The notes under the pieces were generated by a model. That model searched no databases. It had not been told where the DNA came from and saw nothing but the letters and a program-made list of their open reading frames with translations. 64,000 nucleotides of DNA. Origin: Halostella salina (GTDB lineage Archaea > Halobacteriota > Halobacteria > Halobacteriales > Natronoarchaeaceae). The translations under genes and the position numbers were made by a program. Positions 20,058 through 43,148 of this stretch are shown here, in pieces. Each line of letters opens with the position of its first letter. The stretch's first letter is position 1. The stretch lies in NCBI RefSeq assembly GCF_003675855.1, contig NZ_RCIH01000007.1, forward strand, positions 1 to 64,000, in the 5' to 3' direction.

Positions 20058-20330
20058 ATGACCGAGACGGCGACCGCGAACGGCGTCACCGCCCGCTACT
20101 ACGAGACCGACACCGAGCGCGTGATCGAGTTCGAGCGCGACGGCCACACGGCCGCAGTCGCCCAGAACAGCGAGGGGTACGCCATGCTGAAGGTCCGCCC
20201 GAGCGCCGACGGCGACGAACTGGAGCGCTACTACGGCTTCGACATGGCGCTCGACCACGCGGCGGAACTGCTCGGCGTGTCGCCGACGGCTCTGCCGGTG
20301 CCCGACGGCGCGGACGACATGGGCATGTAG
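20058..20330 (+). CDS. Conserved small haloarchaeal-type protein, unknown function
   Basis: A 90-residue acidic protein, MTETATANGVTARYYETDTE..., with alternating strands (RVIEFERDGHTAAVAQNSEG, AMLKVRPSADGDELERYYGF) and a C-terminal helix before MGM. No membrane segment, no metal motif. It has haloarchaeal codon use and a plausible start. I cannot assign a function. Confidence 0.65.
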   Translation: MTETATANGVTARYYETDTERVIEFERDGHTAAVAQNSEGYAMLKVRPSADGDELERYYGFDMALDHAAELLGVSPTALPVPDGADDMGM

Positions 20331-20363: not shown

Positions 20364-20648
20364 TCACGTCACCAGCGAGTACGTGAACAGGAACCCGAAG
20401 TACAGCAGGACGATCCCGCCGATCGCCTTCAGGCGGAACAGCCGCAGGTCCTCGCTCTCCTCGCGGTACGCGGCCTGAAACGCCTCGACCTCAGCCTCGG
20501 TACACGCCTCGGGATGGTCGAGTCCGACGTGGAGCGTGCGGTACTCCTCGTATGCGAACGGTCGTCCGCAGTACGGACAGTCCTCCGTCTGCTCGTCGGC
20601 GGGCAGTTCCACGTCGTCGGCCGGCTGTGGGGATGCGTTCGCGGTCAT
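20364..20648 (-). CDS. Small zinc-finger membrane protein
   Basis: A 94-residue protein with a C2H2-like metal site, CPYCGRPFAYEEYRTLHVGL followed by DHPEAC, then a charged helix and one C-terminal membrane helix (AIGGIVLLYFGFLFTYSLV). ATG 20646-20648 overlaps the stop of the large membrane protein gene upstream (ATGA), so the two are co-translated. Its place at the end of the coxC-side cluster suggests a role with cytochrome oxidase or its assembly; this is inference from position only. Confidence 0.72.
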   Translation of the reverse strand: MTANASPQPADDVELPADEQTEDCPYCGRPFAYEEYRTLHVGLDHPEACTEAEVEAFQAAYREESEDLRLFRLKAIGGIVLLYFGFLFTYSLVT

Positions 20649-22027
20649 AGGTACGGTGGCGTGAGGCTCGGTTCGGCGACGATCCACATGCTGACGACGG
20701 TGTAGGCGACCATCACGAGGATGAACGGGTACTGGCTCCGGATCGCCTGCAGGCGACTCGGGAACAGGTCGTAGGCGGCGGCGTGAGCCACCCAGATCGC
20801 GAGCAGGTGGCCGACCAGCACGAAGCCGAGTTCGACGCCGCCGAACCACGACGGCAGCACGTACTGCTGAGGGTTCGCGGGCGGCGCGAACGGCGCTGCA
20901 AGCACCGCCGACAGGGACGCGAGCAGGCTGATGAAGTACCCGAGGAAATGCGCGAGGTGGTAGCCCGCCGCGATGGCCAGCAGCGGCGGCGCGAACCGGC
21001 GGGCGAGCGCGCCGGACGTGAGATACGTCTCGGCCAGTTCCCGGGAGGCCCGCGACGCGGCGACGTACGCGCCGTAGAACAGGGCGAAGCCGGCCAGGAT
21101 CCCGGCAACGTACACTACCGCCGGCGGGACGCCCGCGCCGACGACGGCCCGTGCGGCGTCCGCCCAGGCGGGCGTGGTGACCAGACCGTCGTACGTCGTC
21201 ACCCACAGCAGCGCGACGACGAAGGCCACTTCGTCCGCGCCGTCGACGCCGCTTGCGTCGGTCAGCCCCATCCCCGGCAGGCGGAGGTCGACCCCGCCGG
21301 CGGTTCGGGCGGCGACGGCGACGCGGCCGTAGTAGTCGAACACCCGCGAGACGGGGTCGACGGTCGAGAACCACCGCTCCGCGCCGAACGCGACGCCGCC
21401 GACGACCGTGACGCCGGCGTAGGCGGCCACGACGCCGGCGAGAAGCCGGGGGTTGTCCGCCAGCGGACTGACGACCTCGACCCAGACCAGGGCGATCAGG
21501 CCGGCGACGCTCGGCCACGCGCCGAGGCGTTCGGGGTACGACAGGTCCAGCGACGGCAGCAGTTCGACCAGCGTCCGGAACGGGTTGATCGCCGGCCACG
21601 TGTTCCCGACGAGGTACACCGACATCACGTAGCCGGCCCACCAGGCGACCCAGACGAGCAACACGGCGAGGTTGCGAAACGGGTCGGGCGGGCCGGTCAG
21701 CCCGAAGTACAGCACCACGGCAAGCCCGGCGAGGCCGAACAGCGACCCGGCGACCTCGACGGCGCGCGACCGGTCGACCGACAGCGTCAGCCCGTACCCG
21801 TCGATCCGGCGGATGAGCCGCCGATCGGTGACGAGGCTGGCGAGCAGGAACGAGGCCCCGACGACGCCGCCGCCGGTCGCCAGAAACAGCCACGTCGGCA
21901 CCGCGAGCGACTCGCTGGACGAGCGGAGCGCGCCGCCGTGTGCCATCGCACGGCCGGAGAGCGTCACGGCTGCGAGCAGAACGGCCGCCGCGACGCTCCG
22001 GAGTTTCGGTGAGACGGAACGGTCCAT
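20645..22027 (-). CDS. Polytopic membrane protein of the cytochrome oxidase cluster
   Basis: A 460-residue protein with a probable N-terminal signal peptide (KLRSVAAAVLLAAVTLSGRA) ending AMA before HGGALRSS, and about ten to twelve later membrane segments. If cleaved after AMA the mature protein would begin with His, as in several copper-binding proteins. Many membrane His, Tyr and Trp residues (YHLAHFLGYFISLLASLS). The gene lies directly downstream of coxC with a 13-bp gap, and it overlaps the zinc-finger gene below it. I do not recognise a named family. A role in oxidase assembly or copper/haem handling is a hypothesis from context. Confidence 0.72.
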   Translation of the reverse strand: MDRSVSPKLRSVAAAVLLAAVTLSGRAMAHGGALRSSSESLAVPTWLFLATGGGVVGASFLLASLVTDRRLIRRIDGYGLTLSVDRSRAVEVAGSLFGLAGLAVVLYFGLTGPPDPFRNLAVLLVWVAWWAGYVMSVYLVGNTWPAINPFRTLVELLPSLDLSYPERLGAWPSVAGLIALVWVEVVSPLADNPRLLAGVVAAYAGVTVVGGVAFGAERWFSTVDPVSRVFDYYGRVAVAARTAGGVDLRLPGMGLTDASGVDGADEVAFVVALLWVTTYDGLVTTPAWADAARAVVGAGVPPAVVYVAGILAGFALFYGAYVAASRASRELAETYLTSGALARRFAPPLLAIAAGYHLAHFLGYFISLLASLSAVLAAPFAPPANPQQYVLPSWFGGVELGFVLVGHLLAIWVAHAAAYDLFPSRLQAIRSQYPFILVMVAYTVVSMWIVAEPSLTPPYL

Positions 22028-22040
22028 GAAGGAACTGCCG

Positions 22041-22886
22041 TCAGACCGCCGCGCCGGCGTACAGGACGACGACGAGGAAGATCCAGACGGCGTCGACGAA
22101 GTGCCAGTACATCGAGACGGTGCTGACGGAGGTGTGCCGTTCCGCGGAGTACTGCCCCGTCAGCCCGCGGGCGAAGACGACGGCGAGCATCACCGCGCCC
22201 AGCGAGACGTGCAGCCCGTGCAGGCCCGTCAGGCCGTAGAACGCGTTCCAGTAGATGCCGCCGGTAAGCGTGTGCCCCTCGACGATGATGAACTCGTAGT
22301 ACTCGTACACCTGTCCGCCGATGAAGATCACGCCGAGCAGGAGCGTCACGCCGAGCAGCCCGAGGAACCGACCGCGGTTGTTCTTCCGGAGCGCGACGTG
22401 CCCGTAGTGGAGCGTGATACTGCTGATCACCAGGATGATCGTGTTAGCGAGCACGAGCCCGGTCAGGCCGGGCACCTCGCCCGGCGGCCACTCGCCGACC
22501 CGGATGAAGAAGTAGTAGACGAAGCCCGCGCCGAACGTCGCTATCTCCGAGCCGAGGAAGGCGATCATCCCCCACCGCAGTTTGCTCTCGCTCTGGTGGT
22601 CCGCGCCGCGGTCCCAGAACGCCTTCACGAACGCGTGGTACACCCAGCCGTACAGGCCGAGCAGGAACACGAACGTGCTCGCGACGAACGCGTACGGGCC
22701 GATGTCCGGTCCCACGAGCCCCCCGTCGCCGCCCAGCAGGTACAGCGACGCCGCCACGTAGAACCCCCCTGCGCCGAGGGCGGTGATGAATGGCCACCAG
22801 CTGGCCTCGCCGAATCCCCGCGGCCAGTCCTCCACCGCGGGCAGGTGGTGCCCGTGGTCCTCCGTCGAGTCGTCCGCTACTGTCAT
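22041..22886 (-). CDS. coxC: Cytochrome c oxidase subunit III
   Basis: Structural subunit of the haem-copper terminal oxidase; seven membrane helices. The 281 residues include WPRGFGEASWWPFITALGAG, the motif FLGSEIATFGAGFVYYFFIR (with the conserved Glu in SE), NTIILVISSITLHYGHVALR, and the last helices with GLHGLHVSLGAVML and YWHFVDAVWIFLVVVLYAG, which are hallmark coxC sequences. The start at 22886 has ATTTTTG 26-32 nt upstream. It lies 99 bp downstream of coxB and is separated by about 18 kb from coxA, so the oxidase genes are split over two loci. Confidence 0.94.
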   Translation of the reverse strand: MTVADDSTEDHGHHLPAVEDWPRGFGEASWWPFITALGAGGFYVAASLYLLGGDGGLVGPDIGPYAFVASTFVFLLGLYGWVYHAFVKAFWDRGADHQSESKLRWGMIAFLGSEIATFGAGFVYYFFIRVGEWPPGEVPGLTGLVLANTIILVISSITLHYGHVALRKNNRGRFLGLLGVTLLLGVIFIGGQVYEYYEFIIVEGHTLTGGIYWNAFYGLTGLHGLHVSLGAVMLAVVFARGLTGQYSAERHTSVSTVSMYWHFVDAVWIFLVVVLYAGAAV

Positions 22887-22985: not shown

Positions 22986-23765
22986 TCAGGCCGCGACGGA
23001 TGCGTTGCCGCTCGTTGCGTTGCCGCTGGTCTCGTTACCCGAGGAGAGTTCGTCCATCCGTTGCTCGTACTCCTCCTGGGTGACGACCTCGACCTCGAAC
23101 ATCATCTGGGAGTGACCCTGTCCGCAGTACTCCGCGCAGTACCCCTGATAGGTGTTCCCGGGTTCGAGCGCCTCGGTCCGGATCATGTTCTGCTGGCCGG
23201 GCACCGCGTCCTGCTTCAGTCCCAGTTCGGGGACGTGGAACGCGTGGAGCCAGTCACGCGTCCCGATGTTCAGGTACACCTTCTCGTTTGCCGGTATCAC
23301 CAACGGCCCTTCGGAGACGCCCGGCCCCGCGAGCGTTCCGGTCGTCACGTTGTGTCGTTCGTACTCGAACGTCCAGGCGTACCGCTGGGCGGTGACGTTT
23401 ATCACTTCGTCGTTCTCGTCGGGCTGGATGTCCTGGGTCGCGATCACGTCGCCCGACCCCATCACGTTGTACGCGCCGACGCCGACGAACAGGAGGATGA
23501 CCGCCGTCGCGATCGTCCAGGTGATCTCGAGTCGGCGGTTCTCCCGGGTCGGCTTCGCCTCGTCGTTGTCCTTGAACCGCACGACGGTGTAGATGAGGAT
23601 GCCCTCCACCAGCAGCGTGATCGGGACCGCGACGAACAGCAGCTCCTGGTTCAGGGAGCTGATGAGGTCGTCCGTCGTCGAGTCCGCGGCCGCTGCGGGC
23701 TGGGCGGCCAGCGCCAGCAACGCCACCCCGAAAAGCGTCATGGCGGCAATCCGCTTGTGCTTCAT
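22986..23765 (-). CDS. coxB: Cytochrome c oxidase subunit II (CuA)
   Basis: Electron-entry subunit of the terminal oxidase, 259 residues. It has a signal-like N-terminus (MTLFGVALLALAAQPAAAA), two membrane helices, and an extracellular cupredoxin domain. The CuA ligands are visible: His174 in DWLHAFHVPELGLKQDAVPG, and Cys210, Glu212, Cys214, His218 and Met221 in GYCAEYCGQGHSQM. The C-terminal tail SSGNETSGNATSGNASVAA is a small sequon-rich repeat not needed for the fold. No haem-c motif, so electrons would come from a blue copper protein (halocyanin) or another donor. A TATTTAAC box lies 27-34 nt before the ATG. Confidence 0.95.
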   Translation of the reverse strand: MKHKRIAAMTLFGVALLALAAQPAAAADSTTDDLISSLNQELLFVAVPITLLVEGILIYTVVRFKDNDEAKPTRENRRLEITWTIATAVILLFVGVGAYNVMGSGDVIATQDIQPDENDEVINVTAQRYAWTFEYERHNVTTGTLAGPGVSEGPLVIPANEKVYLNIGTRDWLHAFHVPELGLKQDAVPGQQNMIRTEALEPGNTYQGYCAEYCGQGHSQMMFEVEVVTQEEYEQRMDELSSGNETSGNATSGNASVAA

Positions 23766-23909: not shown

Positions 23910-25346
23910 ATGGACGGGGACTCGCAGGGGTATCCGAAGCCGATCCACACCGGCGACCGCTTCACCGGACTCGTCGCCGGGACGGCGATGGGGGTCTACC
24001 TGCTCATCATCGTCGGGGCGACGACAGCTATCACGGACGCGGCTACAGCGTGCTCGACGTGGCCGGCCTGCGACGGTGCGTGGCTCGTCGATTTCGGGAA
24101 CACGGACCTCGCGATCGCGTGGGGTCACCGGGTCGCCGCGCTGCTCGTCGGCCTGCTCGTGCTCGCGACCGGCGTCGCCGCATGGCTCGGCGAGCCGCCG
24201 CGGCGCGTTCGGGCCGCGCTGACGGTCGCGACGCTCACCTACCCGGTGCAGGTCGGCATCGGCGCGGTCGCTGCCGTCGCCGGCACCACGGCCCTGCTGT
24301 CCGCCGTCCACCTCGCGCTCGGGACGCTGATCTTCGGGAGCCTCGTCGTCGGCGTCGCCTGGCTGCTGGAGGACCAGACGGCGACCGAGACGGACCGCGA
24401 GCCGGTCGACGTGCCGGACCCCGTCGACGACGAGGCCGCGCCCGAGCCGGAGCGCCCGTCGCTGCCTGACGCGCCGCTCGCCCGCGCGAAGGTGTACGGG
24501 AGCGCCTACGTCCGCCTGATGAAGCCCCGGCTGATGTGGCTGCTCTGTCTCGTCGCCGCCGCCGGAATGGCGCTCGCCGCCGGCCCCGCGCTGACGGTCC
24601 GAACGGTGACGCTCACCCTGCTCGGCGGCGTCCTCGCCATCGGCGCGAGCGGGACGTTCAACCACGTCCTCGAACGCGACATCGACCGGAAGATGAACCG
24701 CACCGCCGACCGCCCCATCGCCACCGACGTGGTGTCGGTCCGGAACGCGCTGGCGTTCGGCGGGCTCCTGACGGGCCTGTCGCTCGTCGCCTTCCTGCAG
24801 GTGAACCTGCTCGCCGCGGGGCTCGGGCTGACCGCCATCCTGTTTTACAGCGTCGTGTACACGCTCGTGCTGAAGCCAAACACCGTCCAGAACACCGTCA
24901 TCGGCGGCGCGGCCGGCGCGCTCCCGGCGATCATCGGCTGGGCGGCCGTCACCGGCTCCGTCGGCGTCCCCGGGCTGGCGCTGGCCGGCGTCATCTTCCT
25001 GTGGACGCCGGCGCACTTCTACAACCTCGCGCTGGCGTACAAGGAGGACTACGCCCGCGGCGGCTTCCCGATGATGCCGGTCGTCCGCGGCGAGGCGACG
25101 ACGCGGAAACACATCGTGTTCTACCTCGCCGCGACGCTGGTCGGCGCGGCGACCCTGTCGGCGGTGAGCGAGCTCGGCCTGCTGTACGCGCTGGCGAGCG
25201 TCGTCTTCGGCGCGGTGTTCCTCTGGGCGGTCGTCCGCCTGCACCGCGAGCGAACCGAGGCGGCGGCGATGCGCTCGTTCCACGCCTCGAACGCCTATCT
25301 CGGCGTCCTCCTGCTGGCCGTCGTCGTCGACTCGCTCGCGCTCTGA
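23910..25346 (+). CDS. ctaB: Fused heme A synthase-like / heme O synthase (CtaA-CtaB)
   Basis: Makes the haem cofactor of the oxidase. Residues ~15-155 form a four-helix CtaA/COX15-like half with the cysteine pair C48...C54 (ACSTWPACDG) and candidate haem-ligand histidines H73 (WGHRVAALL) and H134 (SAVHLALGT). After an acidic linker (~155-185), residues ~190-478 are a UbiA-type farnesyltransferase: RLMKPRLMW, NHVLERDIDRKMNRTADRP with the Asp-rich prenyl-diphosphate site, YTLVLKPNTVQNTVIGGAAG, and the second motif YKEDYARGGFPMMPVVRG. Eight-helix CtaA proteins have two such halves; only one is present. CCTAAGTA 26-33 nt upstream is the likely promoter. Divergent from coxB. Confidence 0.92.
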   Translation: MDGDSQGYPKPIHTGDRFTGLVAGTAMGVYLLIIVGATTAITDAATACSTWPACDGAWLVDFGNTDLAIAWGHRVAALLVGLLVLATGVAAWLGEPPRRVRAALTVATLTYPVQVGIGAVAAVAGTTALLSAVHLALGTLIFGSLVVGVAWLLEDQTATETDREPVDVPDPVDDEAAPEPERPSLPDAPLARAKVYGSAYVRLMKPRLMWLLCLVAAAGMALAAGPALTVRTVTLTLLGGVLAIGASGTFNHVLERDIDRKMNRTADRPIATDVVSVRNALAFGGLLTGLSLVAFLQVNLLAAGLGLTAILFYSVVYTLVLKPNTVQNTVIGGAAGALPAIIGWAAVTGSVGVPGLALAGVIFLWTPAHFYNLALAYKEDYARGGFPMMPVVRGEATTRKHIVFYLAATLVGAATLSAVSELGLLYALASVVFGAVFLWAVVRLHRERTEAAAMRSFHASNAYLGVLLLAVVVDSLAL

Positions 25347-25355
25347 TCCCCCGCC

Positions 25356-26027
25356 ATGAACGTCCGTCAGTCGCTCCCGTCGCTCCCGAACGGCCGAACC
25401 CTGCTGTACGGAGCGCTCGTTCTCAACACGGAACTCCTGCTCGTGCTGCTCCACCCGGGCATCGCCGGACTCACCGCCCAGGGGTGGCTGCACGTCGCGC
25501 TCGCGCTGGTGTGGATCAACGTCGGCGCGTGGGCGGTGCTGCGGACCGACCCCGCGCCCGCGTCGCCCGACCAGCGCCGGACCGCGTTCGTCGTCGCGGC
25601 CGGCTACTTCGCCGTCCTGCTGTACGTCGGCGGCCTCGTGACCCTCGGCACCACGTTCGCGTCGGCCGACCTGCCGGCGACCGGTGCCCGGATCGCCTGG
25701 CTGATCCCGGGCTGGGGACCGGCCGTCCAGTACGGCGGCGAACTGGTGACCGTCTCGCTCCAGCCGTACAAGCTGGTCGGCTACTTCGCGCTCGCCTATC
25801 TCGTGTACGCGACGGTGCTGGACGCCGCCGGCGCGGCCGTCTCGGGCGTGCTCGGCCTGCTCTCCTGTGTCAGCTGTACCTGGCCGGTCCTGACGACGGT
25901 GGCGACGAGCGTGCTCGGGGGGTCCTCCGCCCTCGCGGCCGCCGTCCAGAACTGGCCCCAGGAGATATCGACCGTGGTGTTCGTCGTCACCGTCGGGTTA
26001 TTGTACTGGCGACCGTTCGGCCGGTAG
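25356..26027 (+). CDS. Membrane protein of the oxidase cluster, unknown function
   Basis: A 223-residue protein with about six or seven membrane helices. The notable feature is a Cys pair, LLSCVSCTWPVL, at the start of a late helix, which could bind metal or form a disulfide. It begins 9 bp after the fused haem synthase and ends 1 bp before the next gene, so the three form an operon. No family assignment from the sequence; the conserved placing suggests an oxidase-biogenesis role, as inference. Confidence 0.7.
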   Translation: MNVRQSLPSLPNGRTLLYGALVLNTELLLVLLHPGIAGLTAQGWLHVALALVWINVGAWAVLRTDPAPASPDQRRTAFVVAAGYFAVLLYVGGLVTLGTTFASADLPATGARIAWLIPGWGPAVQYGGELVTVSLQPYKLVGYFALAYLVYATVLDAAGAAVSGVLGLLSCVSCTWPVLTTVATSVLGGSSALAAAVQNWPQEISTVVFVVTVGLLYWRPFGR

Positions 26028-41336: not shown

Positions 41337-43148
41337 ATGGCAATCGAAGGGCAGTTAGCGCTGACGGTGCTGATGGGGGCCTTGCTTCTGGGGGTCGCCG
41401 TCTGGATCACGCGCCTCGAGAACTGGCGCTCGTACACGCCGCTCGCGGGCGGCGGTGCCGTCGGCGAGGAGACGGGATACGGACATCACGAGAAACCCGG
41501 CGGGCTCATCCGCTGGCTTACGACGGTCGACCACAAGGACATCGGCATCCTGTACGGAACGTACGCGCTGATCGCGTTCGTCTGGGGCGGGCTCGCCGCC
41601 GTCCTCATGCGGGCCGAACTGTCGACGGAGAGCATCGCCCTGTTGGGCAACACGCAGGTGTACAACGCCCTGCTGACGAGCCACGGGATCACGATGCTGT
41701 TCCTGTTCGGGACGCCGATCATCGCGGCCTTCGCGAACTACCTCGTGCCGCTGCTCATCGACGCGGACGACATGGCGTTCCCGCGGATCAACGCCATCGC
41801 GTTCTGGCTGCTCCCGCCCGGCGCACTGCTCATCTGGGGCGGCTTCTTCATCGCGCCGTTCACCGACGCGGTGTCGAACGCCGCCGCGACCTCCTGGACG
41901 ATGTATCCGCCGCTGTCGGTCGAGCAGACCAACCCCACCGTCGACCTGATGCTGCTCGGTCTCCACCTGACGGGCGTCTCGGCGACGATGGGCGCGATCA
42001 ACTTCATCGCGACCATCTTCACCGAGCGCGGCGAGGAGGTCGGCTGGTCGAACCTCGACATCTTCTCGTGGACGATCCTCACCCAGTCCGGCCTCATCCT
42101 CTTCGCGTTCCCCCTCCTGGGCAGCGCCATCGTGATGCTCCTGCTCGACCGGAACTTCGACACGATGTTCTTCGCCGTGGAAGGTGGTGGGACGATCCTC
42201 TGGCAACACCTGTTCTGGTTCTTCGGCCATCCGGAGGTGTACATCCTCGTCCTCCCGCCGATGGGCATCGTCAGCTACGTCCTCCCGCGCTTCGCGGGCC
42301 GGAAGCTGTTCGGCTTCAAGTTCGTCGTCTACTCCACGCTCGCCATCGGGGTGCTCTCCTTCGGCGTCTGGGCGCACCACATGTTCACGACGGGCATCGA
42401 CCCGCGGCTGCGGGCTAGCTTCATGGCGGTGTCGCTGGCCATCGCCATCCCGAGCGCGGTCAAGACGTTCAACTGGATCACGACGATGTGGAACGGCAGC
42501 ATCAAGCTGACCACGCCGATGCTGTTCTGTATCGGCTTCATCTCGAACTTCATCATCGGCGGCGTCACCGGGGTGTTCCTCGCGGCCATCCCGGTCGACC
42601 TGGTGCTCCACGACACGTACTACGTCGTCGGGCACTTCCACTACATCGTGATGGGTGCCATCTCCTTCGCCGGCTTCGCCGGCCTCTACTACTGGTACCC
42701 GATGTACACCGGCCGGATGTACCAGCGCACGCTCGGCAAGTGGCACTTCTGGCTCTCGATGATCGGCACCAACCTGACGTTCTTCGCCATGATCCTGCTG
42801 GGCTACGCCGGCTTCACGCGCCGGTACGCCACCTACTCCGGGATCACGGTCGGCCCCATCGAGATGATCACCATCCTGCACCAGCTCGCCACCGTCGGCG
42901 CGTTCATCCTGCTCATCGGGCAGATCATCTTCGTCTGGAACATGGTGAGCTCGTGGATCGACGGGCCGAAAGTCGAGGACGGTGACCCGTGGAACCTCAA
43001 GGAGAGCGGCGTCCACACCCGCGAGTGGACCTGGTTCGACCGCCAGCTCGACACCGCCCTCACGGACGGCGGCGACGAGGAGGAGGCGCTGCCGGACGGC
43101 GGGACGGAGTCGGTCGACGACGGCCGTACCGCGGACGACGAGACGTAG
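41337..43148 (+). CDS. coxA: Cytochrome c oxidase subunit I (A-type haem-copper oxidase)
   Basis: Catalytic subunit reducing O2 to water and pumping protons, 603 residues, twelve membrane helices. Low-spin haem ligand H116 (LLTSHGITML); CuB ligand and cross-linked Tyr in WFFGHPEVYILVLPP (H298, E300, Y302); CuB H347-H348 (WAHHMF); haem a3 and haem a ligands in TYYVVGHFHYIVMG. The HPEVYI glutamate is the A1-type D-channel acid, so this is not a ba3/B-type oxidase. An acidic C-terminal tail of about 60 residues is haloarchaeal. Subunits II and III are ~18 kb away. Confidence 0.95.
   Translation: MAIEGQLALTVLMGALLLGVAVWITRLENWRSYTPLAGGGAVGEETGYGHHEKPGGLIRWLTTVDHKDIGILYGTYALIAFVWGGLAAVLMRAELSTESIALLGNTQVYNALLTSHGITMLFLFGTPIIAAFANYLVPLLIDADDMAFPRINAIAFWLLPPGALLIWGGFFIAPFTDAVSNAAATSWTMYPPLSVEQTNPTVDLMLLGLHLTGVSATMGAINFIATIFTERGEEVGWSNLDIFSWTILTQSGLILFAFPLLGSAIVMLLLDRNFDTMFFAVEGGGTILWQHLFWFFGHPEVYILVLPPMGIVSYVLPRFAGRKLFGFKFVVYSTLAIGVLSFGVWAHHMFTTGIDPRLRASFMAVSLAIAIPSAVKTFNWITTMWNGSIKLTTPMLFCIGFISNFIIGGVTGVFLAAIPVDLVLHDTYYVVGHFHYIVMGAISFAGFAGLYYWYPMYTGRMYQRTLGKWHFWLSMIGTNLTFFAMILLGYAGFTRRYATYSGITVGPIEMITILHQLATVGAFILLIGQIIFVWNMVSSWIDGPKVEDGDPWNLKESGVHTREWTWFDRQLDTALTDGGDEEEALPDGGTESVDDGRTADDET

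Follow-up and report, generated by a model that had tools for sequence, protein, structure and literature searches.

A membrane protein of no named family in an oxidase locus

In Halostella salina, a minus-strand row of genes runs from coxB through coxC to a gene for a membrane protein and on to a small zinc-finger gene, which raises the question of what a polytopic protein of no named family contributes to an oxidase locus. We examined a window of 64,000 nt (contig NZ_RCIH01000007.1, positions 1-64,000) that contains this row, and refer to the membrane protein as MP460. The features are as follows.

22986..23765, minus strand: coxB, oxidase subunit II (open reading frame; tblastn match to a Pfam COX2 gene)
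22041..22886, minus strand: coxC, oxidase subunit III (PF00510 match at 22056-22691)
20645..22027 (stop included), minus strand: MP460, membrane protein; precursor of 460 residues, ten transmembrane (TM) helices modelled
21941..22027, minus strand: putative signal-peptide-like N-terminus of MP460, residues 1-29, ending A-M-A (sequence and alignment)
21938..21940, minus strand: codon for His30 in an AHG motif (alignment conservation)
21188..21190, minus strand: codon for Asp280, placed by the model at the outer end of TM6 (alignments and model; lost together with His30)
20711..20959, minus strand: codons for His357 and His360 (TM8), His407 and His415 (TM9), and Met439 (TM10), the modelled in-membrane core
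20364..20648, minus strand: 94-residue DUF7410 zinc-finger protein with one C-terminal hydrophobic segment (Pfam and sequence)

Used as a tblastn query, coxB matches the gene at locus L103 with 28.6% identity, and that gene is a Pfam COX2. Between the coxC stop and the MP460 ATG there are exactly 13 nt, and the TGA of MP460 overlaps the ATG of the zinc-finger gene in ATGA. Both reading frames, the gap, and the overlap are thus as described in a sequence-only reading of this DNA, which had placed the gene 13 bp after coxC and overlapping a small zinc-finger/membrane gene. The 460 residues that it assigned to the mature protein are those of the precursor; cleavage after A-M-A would leave 431.

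The subunit I gene in the window does not adjoin coxB and coxC: a COX1 gene (PF00115) lies on the opposite strand about 19.5 kb away (41538-42908, plus). The same cluster as MP460 holds a DUF7546 membrane protein (25356-26027, plus; E 6.5e-77). A 478-residue protein encoded in the window (23910-25346, plus) resembles a heme A synthase/heme O synthase fusion, judged from its sequence alone. A 90-residue open reading frame (20058-20330, plus) is convergent with the zinc-finger gene; of the 30 best loci, four are from same-genus relatives, and three of these have a homologue of it.

The family spans haloarchaea and actinobacteria

MP460 has no match above cut-off in Pfam or NCBIfam and belongs to a real, conserved family that is unnamed in both. 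Homologues are present in 67 of 98 haloarchaeal genomes, its own included; six fragment rows from split copies in this 98-genome search were dropped before any counts were made. In a draw of 148 genomes across the phylum, 16 match, of which 13 are from the window's order (again with its own genome) and the other three are weak, partial, and outside that order. A plasmid search with an E limit of 10 yielded matches in mycobacteria, Rhodococcus, Nonomuraea, Sulfitobacter, Rhizobium, Variovorax, and other bacteria, and a genome scan with the actinobacterial homologues confirmed at least 585 sites from at least 597 pattern hits. The best 80 of these sites were kept, all of them titled as actinobacteria. 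Haloarchaeal and actinobacterial profiles are homologous (hhalign probability 100%, E 3e-43), and none of 20 pattern matches on viral contigs is a relative. The A6 alignment omits L063 and L086, and L095 lacks the N-terminus. At L022 (genome G003) the MP460 and zinc-finger frames merge, so that the membrane-protein gene seems to contain a frame break.

The main-clade copies in haloarchaea most often neighbour oxidase loci: COX1 or COX3 lies within 6 kb of at least 43 of these 75 copies. Among the 30 best loci, read with a 1.5-kb flank, a zinc-finger homologue accompanies the family member in 30 and coxC in 19. P19-like genes (DUF7350/PF10634, 'Iron_transport') occur within 3 kb of at least 18 of the 75 main-clade copies and at least six of the 21 distant copies; the remaining main-clade copies have, among the matches listed, the zinc finger only (eight) or none of these genes (six). 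Among the matches listed, no oxidase gene comes within 20 kb of any of the 21 distant copies. As raw counts, 55 of the 61 genomes that have a main-clade copy carry a stand-alone COX3 gene, against 13 of the 37 that have no such copy. MP460 is therefore not needed for every oxidase; six of those 13 genomes have a distant copy.

Other neighbours resemble proteins of metal metabolism. A halocyanin-like gene cluster was found in five of 40 regions read, with one member matching Pfam Copper-bind. The P19-like gene stands next to the membrane-protein gene in 15 of 35 regions, at a distance of 23-131 nt in 14 and 451 nt in one; these 35 are the regions in which the gene caller found a membrane-protein gene, and they were chosen partly for the absence of an oxidase. 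Distant copies adjoin a gene for a DyP-like DUF7405 protein, as in L139 (4504-5805) and L041 (7337-8599; annotated as Dyp-type peroxidase domain-containing), an arrangement reminiscent of EfeUOB-like iron systems. A search of PMC returned no paper on DUF7350, DUF7405, or DUF7546.

The zinc-finger gene belongs to the oxidase locus

The 94-residue protein is a member of DUF7410 (PF24166; E 3.4e-12, 46.5 bits against a gathering cut-off of 27.5), with the sequence pattern C-P-Y-C ... H ... H ahead of its hydrophobic segment. No paper on this domain came up in a search of PMC. A zinc-finger gene lies within 2.5 kb of 56 of the 75 main-clade copies, and at least 20 of the 29 zinc-finger copies that have no MP460 within 3 kb are still within 5 kb of COX3. 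These copies speak against an exclusive pair and mark the zinc finger as belonging to the oxidase locus and not specifically to MP460. Its product would face the cytoplasm as an accessory of that locus and would not be the metal partner; an accessory or regulatory role in the cytoplasm is our guess.

A histidine and an aspartate of a putative outer site were lost together

The sequence-only reading had likened an N-terminal histidine of MP460 to the copper ligand of CopC. The strong constraint on this residue is borne out. Ala27, Ala29, and His30 are invariant in all 14 aligned haloarchaeal homologues; in the 32-row oxidase-linked set, His30 is present in 32 rows and Ala27 and Ala29 in 30 each, so a site resembling AxA cleavage followed by histidine is conserved. 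His30 is also kept in 82 of 83 actinobacterial and three of four proteobacterial rows. The free amine of CopC is a different matter. In actinobacteria, A-H-G often follows a very short N-terminus: the frame opens at most 15 residues before the conserved histidine in six of 79 loci, which consequently have no removable signal peptide, and only 6-7 residues precede it in L116-L118. The side chain is thus kept with or without a possible new N-terminus, which weakens the analogy with CopC and still allows His30 to be a ligand or docking residue. From these alignments, His30 probably does not matter as a free N-terminus, and cleavage after AMA in the haloarchaeal protein, though putative, is plausible.

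Six positions are fixed (at least 90%) to different residues in 32 oxidase-clade rows and 22 other haloarchaeal rows: H30, W126, W130, T277, D280, and W288. At all of these except 126, at least 99% of 83 actinobacterial rows have the oxidase-clade residue. The five distant rows keep His30 (4/5) and Asp280 (5/5) and differ at positions 130, 277, and 288.

The alternative signature is recognized by Ser280. In a set of 96 haloarchaeal rows, which omits the duplicate-contig copy G046:C16 and adds the split copy G040:C5, this signature is carried by 18 of 18 P19-linked main-clade copies, 11 of 43 oxidase-linked copies, and five unlinked ones. Sorted by neighbour, the 34 Ser280 rows stand beside P19-like genes (18), fused COX1-COX3 genes (11), or neither (5). 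Position 30 is never His in these proteins; it is Asn in 22 of 22 rows in one alignment and mostly Val, Ala, or Asn in another. His30 and Asp280 are intact in all 24 copies beside a stand-alone COX3 gene and in four with only COX1 nearby, and the copies beside fused COX1-COX3 genes comprise 11 changed and four intact, the terms stand-alone and fused being assigned by open-frame length. In a 93-row tree (omitting L160, L152, and one row of at most 250 residues), Ser280 defines a single clade of 33 rows with a support of 100.

Judging from this tree and the alignments, His30 and Asp280 were lost together, once. Their joint loss suggests that the two residues act together; as a change that happened once, it gives no independent correlation with oxidase type, and Fisher values of 8e-7 and 1.5e-8 are not independent evidence because the Ser280 change is one event. 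A division into an 'oxidase clade' and a 'P19 clade', drawn from 58 rows picked partly by neighbour, is overturned by 38 added rows: 11 of the 43 oxidase-linked copies carry the changed signature. In three genomes of the window's family (L135, L136, and L138), a copy without His30 adjoins SecD/SecF-like genes, and a fourth (L151) has one such gene nearby, the names having been read from sequence.

A conserved histidine and methionine core modelled in the membrane

MP460 contains five histidines (30, 357, 360, 407, and 415) and no cysteine. Residues His357, His360, His407, and His415 are present in 31 of 32 oxidase-clade rows, with the remaining row gapped. Across the pooled haloarchaeal and actinobacterial rows, H360, H407, H415, and M439 are each conserved at a fraction of 0.99, and they are kept in all groups; the exceptions at 415 are one haloarchaeal row with Thr and one with Asp.

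An AlphaFold model of the mature protein computed with 77 actinobacterial rows has a pLDDT of 86.5 and a pTM of 0.85; the MP460 sequence on its own gave a pLDDT of 42.7. We interpret it as ten TM helices with an outside N-terminus, an orientation that places 14 Arg/Lys residues in inside loops versus three in outside loops. H360, H407, and M439 would lie at about the same depth, judged by helix position. Residues 1-9 of the model have a pLDDT below 50, so the outer site is drawn from conservation.

Comparison with known structures gave no significant match. Foldseek gave no match in the PDB at E ≤0.001 (best, 8.5e-3), and VIA-align placed 441 of 998 chains at Z ≥2 and none at 8, the best being a talin domain (Z 5.0, rmsd 5.3, 122 aligned residues). 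By sequence, the PDB yielded one chance-level racemase match to MP460 (E 0.063) and none to the A6 profile at E 1. These null searches show neither kinship nor a new fold.

Bacterial homologues have copper-protein-like neighbours

Among the best 80 of the at least 585 sites, a cupredoxin-like gene lies directly upstream of the homologue in 73 of the 74 actinobacterial loci with enough flank; 20 of these loci also supplied the profile for the upstream gene. Three of five further loci, which are short of flank, still show it. The encoded protein has conserved H-x-H-G and E-x-H motifs and no conserved cysteine. Pfam scans of three such proteins gave one Cupredoxin_1 match below cut-off (E 0.003) and nothing of the kind for the others. 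CopC-like genes are near nine of 80 actinobacterial homologues (by tblastn; three checked by Pfam), and a COX2-COX1-COX3 array is found at one of 80 loci, in a MAG (COX1 and COX2 by Pfam, COX3 by tblastn). A right-handed β-helix protein (PF13229; for example, L043 4405-6543) is encoded upstream in 47 of 80 actinobacterial loci and is possibly a third component.

On the M. dioxanotrophicus plasmid, copper monooxygenase genes lie about 1 kb from the homologue. On the NBB4 mycobacterial plasmid they are about 5 kb away, and a soluble-type monooxygenase is annotated next downstream. No copper enzyme is present in the stretches read for Rhodococcus ZPP and M. vanbaalenii JOB5. In Sulfitobacter the homologue adjoins a PCu(A)C gene; in the other three of four annotated proteobacterial cases (Variovorax, Sagittula, and Fuscovulum), the homologues are in catabolic or transport loci without copper genes. 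The records for Nonomuraea gerenzanensis and Rhizobium sp. 007 carry no annotation at the homologue. The label 'fenitrothion hydrolase' for the actinobacterial members is set aside as unsupported, nothing on such a protein having appeared among the matches listed.

Comparison with known metal-handling systems

Among 31 haloarchaeal genomes, SCO1-SenC is found in 22 (21 over cut-off). The same 31 genomes, that of the window included, contain neither Cox11_CtaG (PF04442) nor Caa3_CtaG (PF09678), and PCuAC reaches the cut-off in none of the 31, with one weak match under it; control genomes matched in every one of these searches. According to the available sections of PMC9145763, Cox11_CtaG and Caa3_CtaG seem to be required for CuB, the role of Caa3_CtaG being called tentative. 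The presence of SCO1 in haloarchaeal genomes that have neither of these factors is the reason that CuB delivery is proposed for MP460. A paper on the copper genes of Haloferax mediterranei (PMC9240420, available in part) lists SCO proteins, and CtaG is absent from its main text. The accessible portions of PMC6696091 and PMC8305020 contain nothing on haloarchaeal CuB loading.

Caa3_CtaG, which occurs in Bacillus and actinobacteria, is like MP460 a polytopic membrane protein tied to oxidase genes. Its conserved histidines and one aspartate are proposed metal ligands, again as in MP460, but B. subtilis CtaG has seven predicted TM helices (both points from the sections of PMC9145763 noted above) and MP460 has ten modelled. 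We reject kinship between the two, as hhalign gave probabilities of 0.4 and 0.2% against nine actinobacterial CtaG sequences. All 16 actinobacterial genomes tested have Caa3_CtaG alongside the MP460 family, which therefore does not replace it there.

In CopC/CopD and YcnJ, an exported copper-binding domain and a polytopic partner with important histidines support heme-copper oxidases; the YcnJ residues at issue are those of the H24A and H295A variants (PMC13344008, in the part available). MP460 differs from these proteins in that its conserved histidine sits in a short N-terminal tail rather than in a CopC domain. No CopC domain (PF04234) appears in a Pfam scan of MP460 to E 10, and the model is almost all helical; CopD is likewise absent from Pfam scans of MP460 and of 78 A6 members.

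Iron permeases of the FTR1/EfeU type carry conserved REXXE motifs. MP460 has one such sequence, RELAE, which is not kept in L004, L005, L007, and others. P19/FetP with an FTR1-type permease, and EfeUOB, offer a further parallel: members of the MP460 family, too, can have a P19-like gene as partner, and some in the distant clade adjoin a DyP-like gene. Unlike those systems, the window copy is oxidase-linked, and it keeps the His30 and Asp280 that the 18 P19-linked main-clade copies have lost.

A tentative model of copper delivery to the oxidase

We tentatively favour, at a little short of an even chance, the view that MP460 handles copper in the membrane for the oxidase locus, receiving the metal and inserting it into the oxidase. 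That copper is the ligand, as well as the direction of its transfer and its acceptor, is what we infer; iron in place of copper is possible. Copper would reach the outer site (which includes His30 and Asp280, with Trp130, Thr277, and Trp288) from an exported donor, which in actinobacteria may be the neighbouring cupredoxin-like protein and in this archaeon perhaps halocyanin or Sco. In the modelled core, His360, His407, and Met439 share one depth in TM8-10, with His415 below; the core would hold the metal and hand it on, either to the oxidase or into the cell for the oxidase to use. The suggestion that this locus delivers copper or haem is accordingly upheld in part: the tie to oxidase loci and the many copper-protein neighbours in archaea and bacteria speak for copper, and nothing specific for haem delivery emerged. 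A bolder version, which we regard as doubtful, holds that the family is a cross-kingdom copper receiver/inserter whose haloarchaeal branch loads CuB as Cox11 and Caa3_CtaG do, with His30/Asp280 as an outer docking site and a His/His/Met site in the membrane.

The P19-like neighbours suggest a broader role. MP460 might be a general permease or receptor for iron or copper that takes metal from an exported β-sandwich protein (P19-like or cupredoxin-like) and moves it across the membrane, with the oxidase locus as one customer. Such genes lie within 3 kb of at least 24 of 96 copies, often adjacent, and the DyP-like gene beside distant copies and the heavy-metal P-type ATPase genes near some copies fit this picture. 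It is nonetheless somewhat unlikely, given that oxidase loci are the commonest main-clade neighbour, that the REXXE sequence of MP460 is absent from its relatives, and that just 26 of 133 listed P19-like copies are near a family member.

The core could also bind something other than a bare metal ion. If His360 and His407 (or His and Met) ligated haem, MP460 would be a b-type haem protein acting ahead of metal uptake or insertion, either as a reductase of extracytoplasmic Cu(II) or Fe(III) or as an electron carrier. Paired in-membrane histidines at matching depth in the modelled antiparallel TM8 and TM9 are kept in every clade, as this would require, and non-significant structural rows include a cytochrome bd oxidase (9fka_A, E 0.086) and a ba3 oxidase (4gp8_A, Z 4.1, rmsd 6.1, 118 aligned). 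The protein lacks CxxCH, having no cysteine at all, and its actinobacterial partner genes resemble those of copper rather than haem proteins, so we hold this to be improbable. The close linkage of MP460 to coxC and to the zinc-finger gene, together with the copies found beside or near SecD/SecF-like genes, would equally suit a structural or membrane-insertion factor for oxidase subunits that binds no metal and uses its conserved histidines for packing. That His and Met rank among the most conserved residues, and that exported copper-protein-like genes recur in bacteria, makes this very improbable.

If MP460 does handle copper for the oxidase, it would bear on the poorly understood loading of CuB, for which the family is a concrete candidate with named residues. 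The family is large and unnamed, with at least 585 sites and a near-constant partner gene in actinobacteria, so a single deletion study would bear on many hypothetical proteins.
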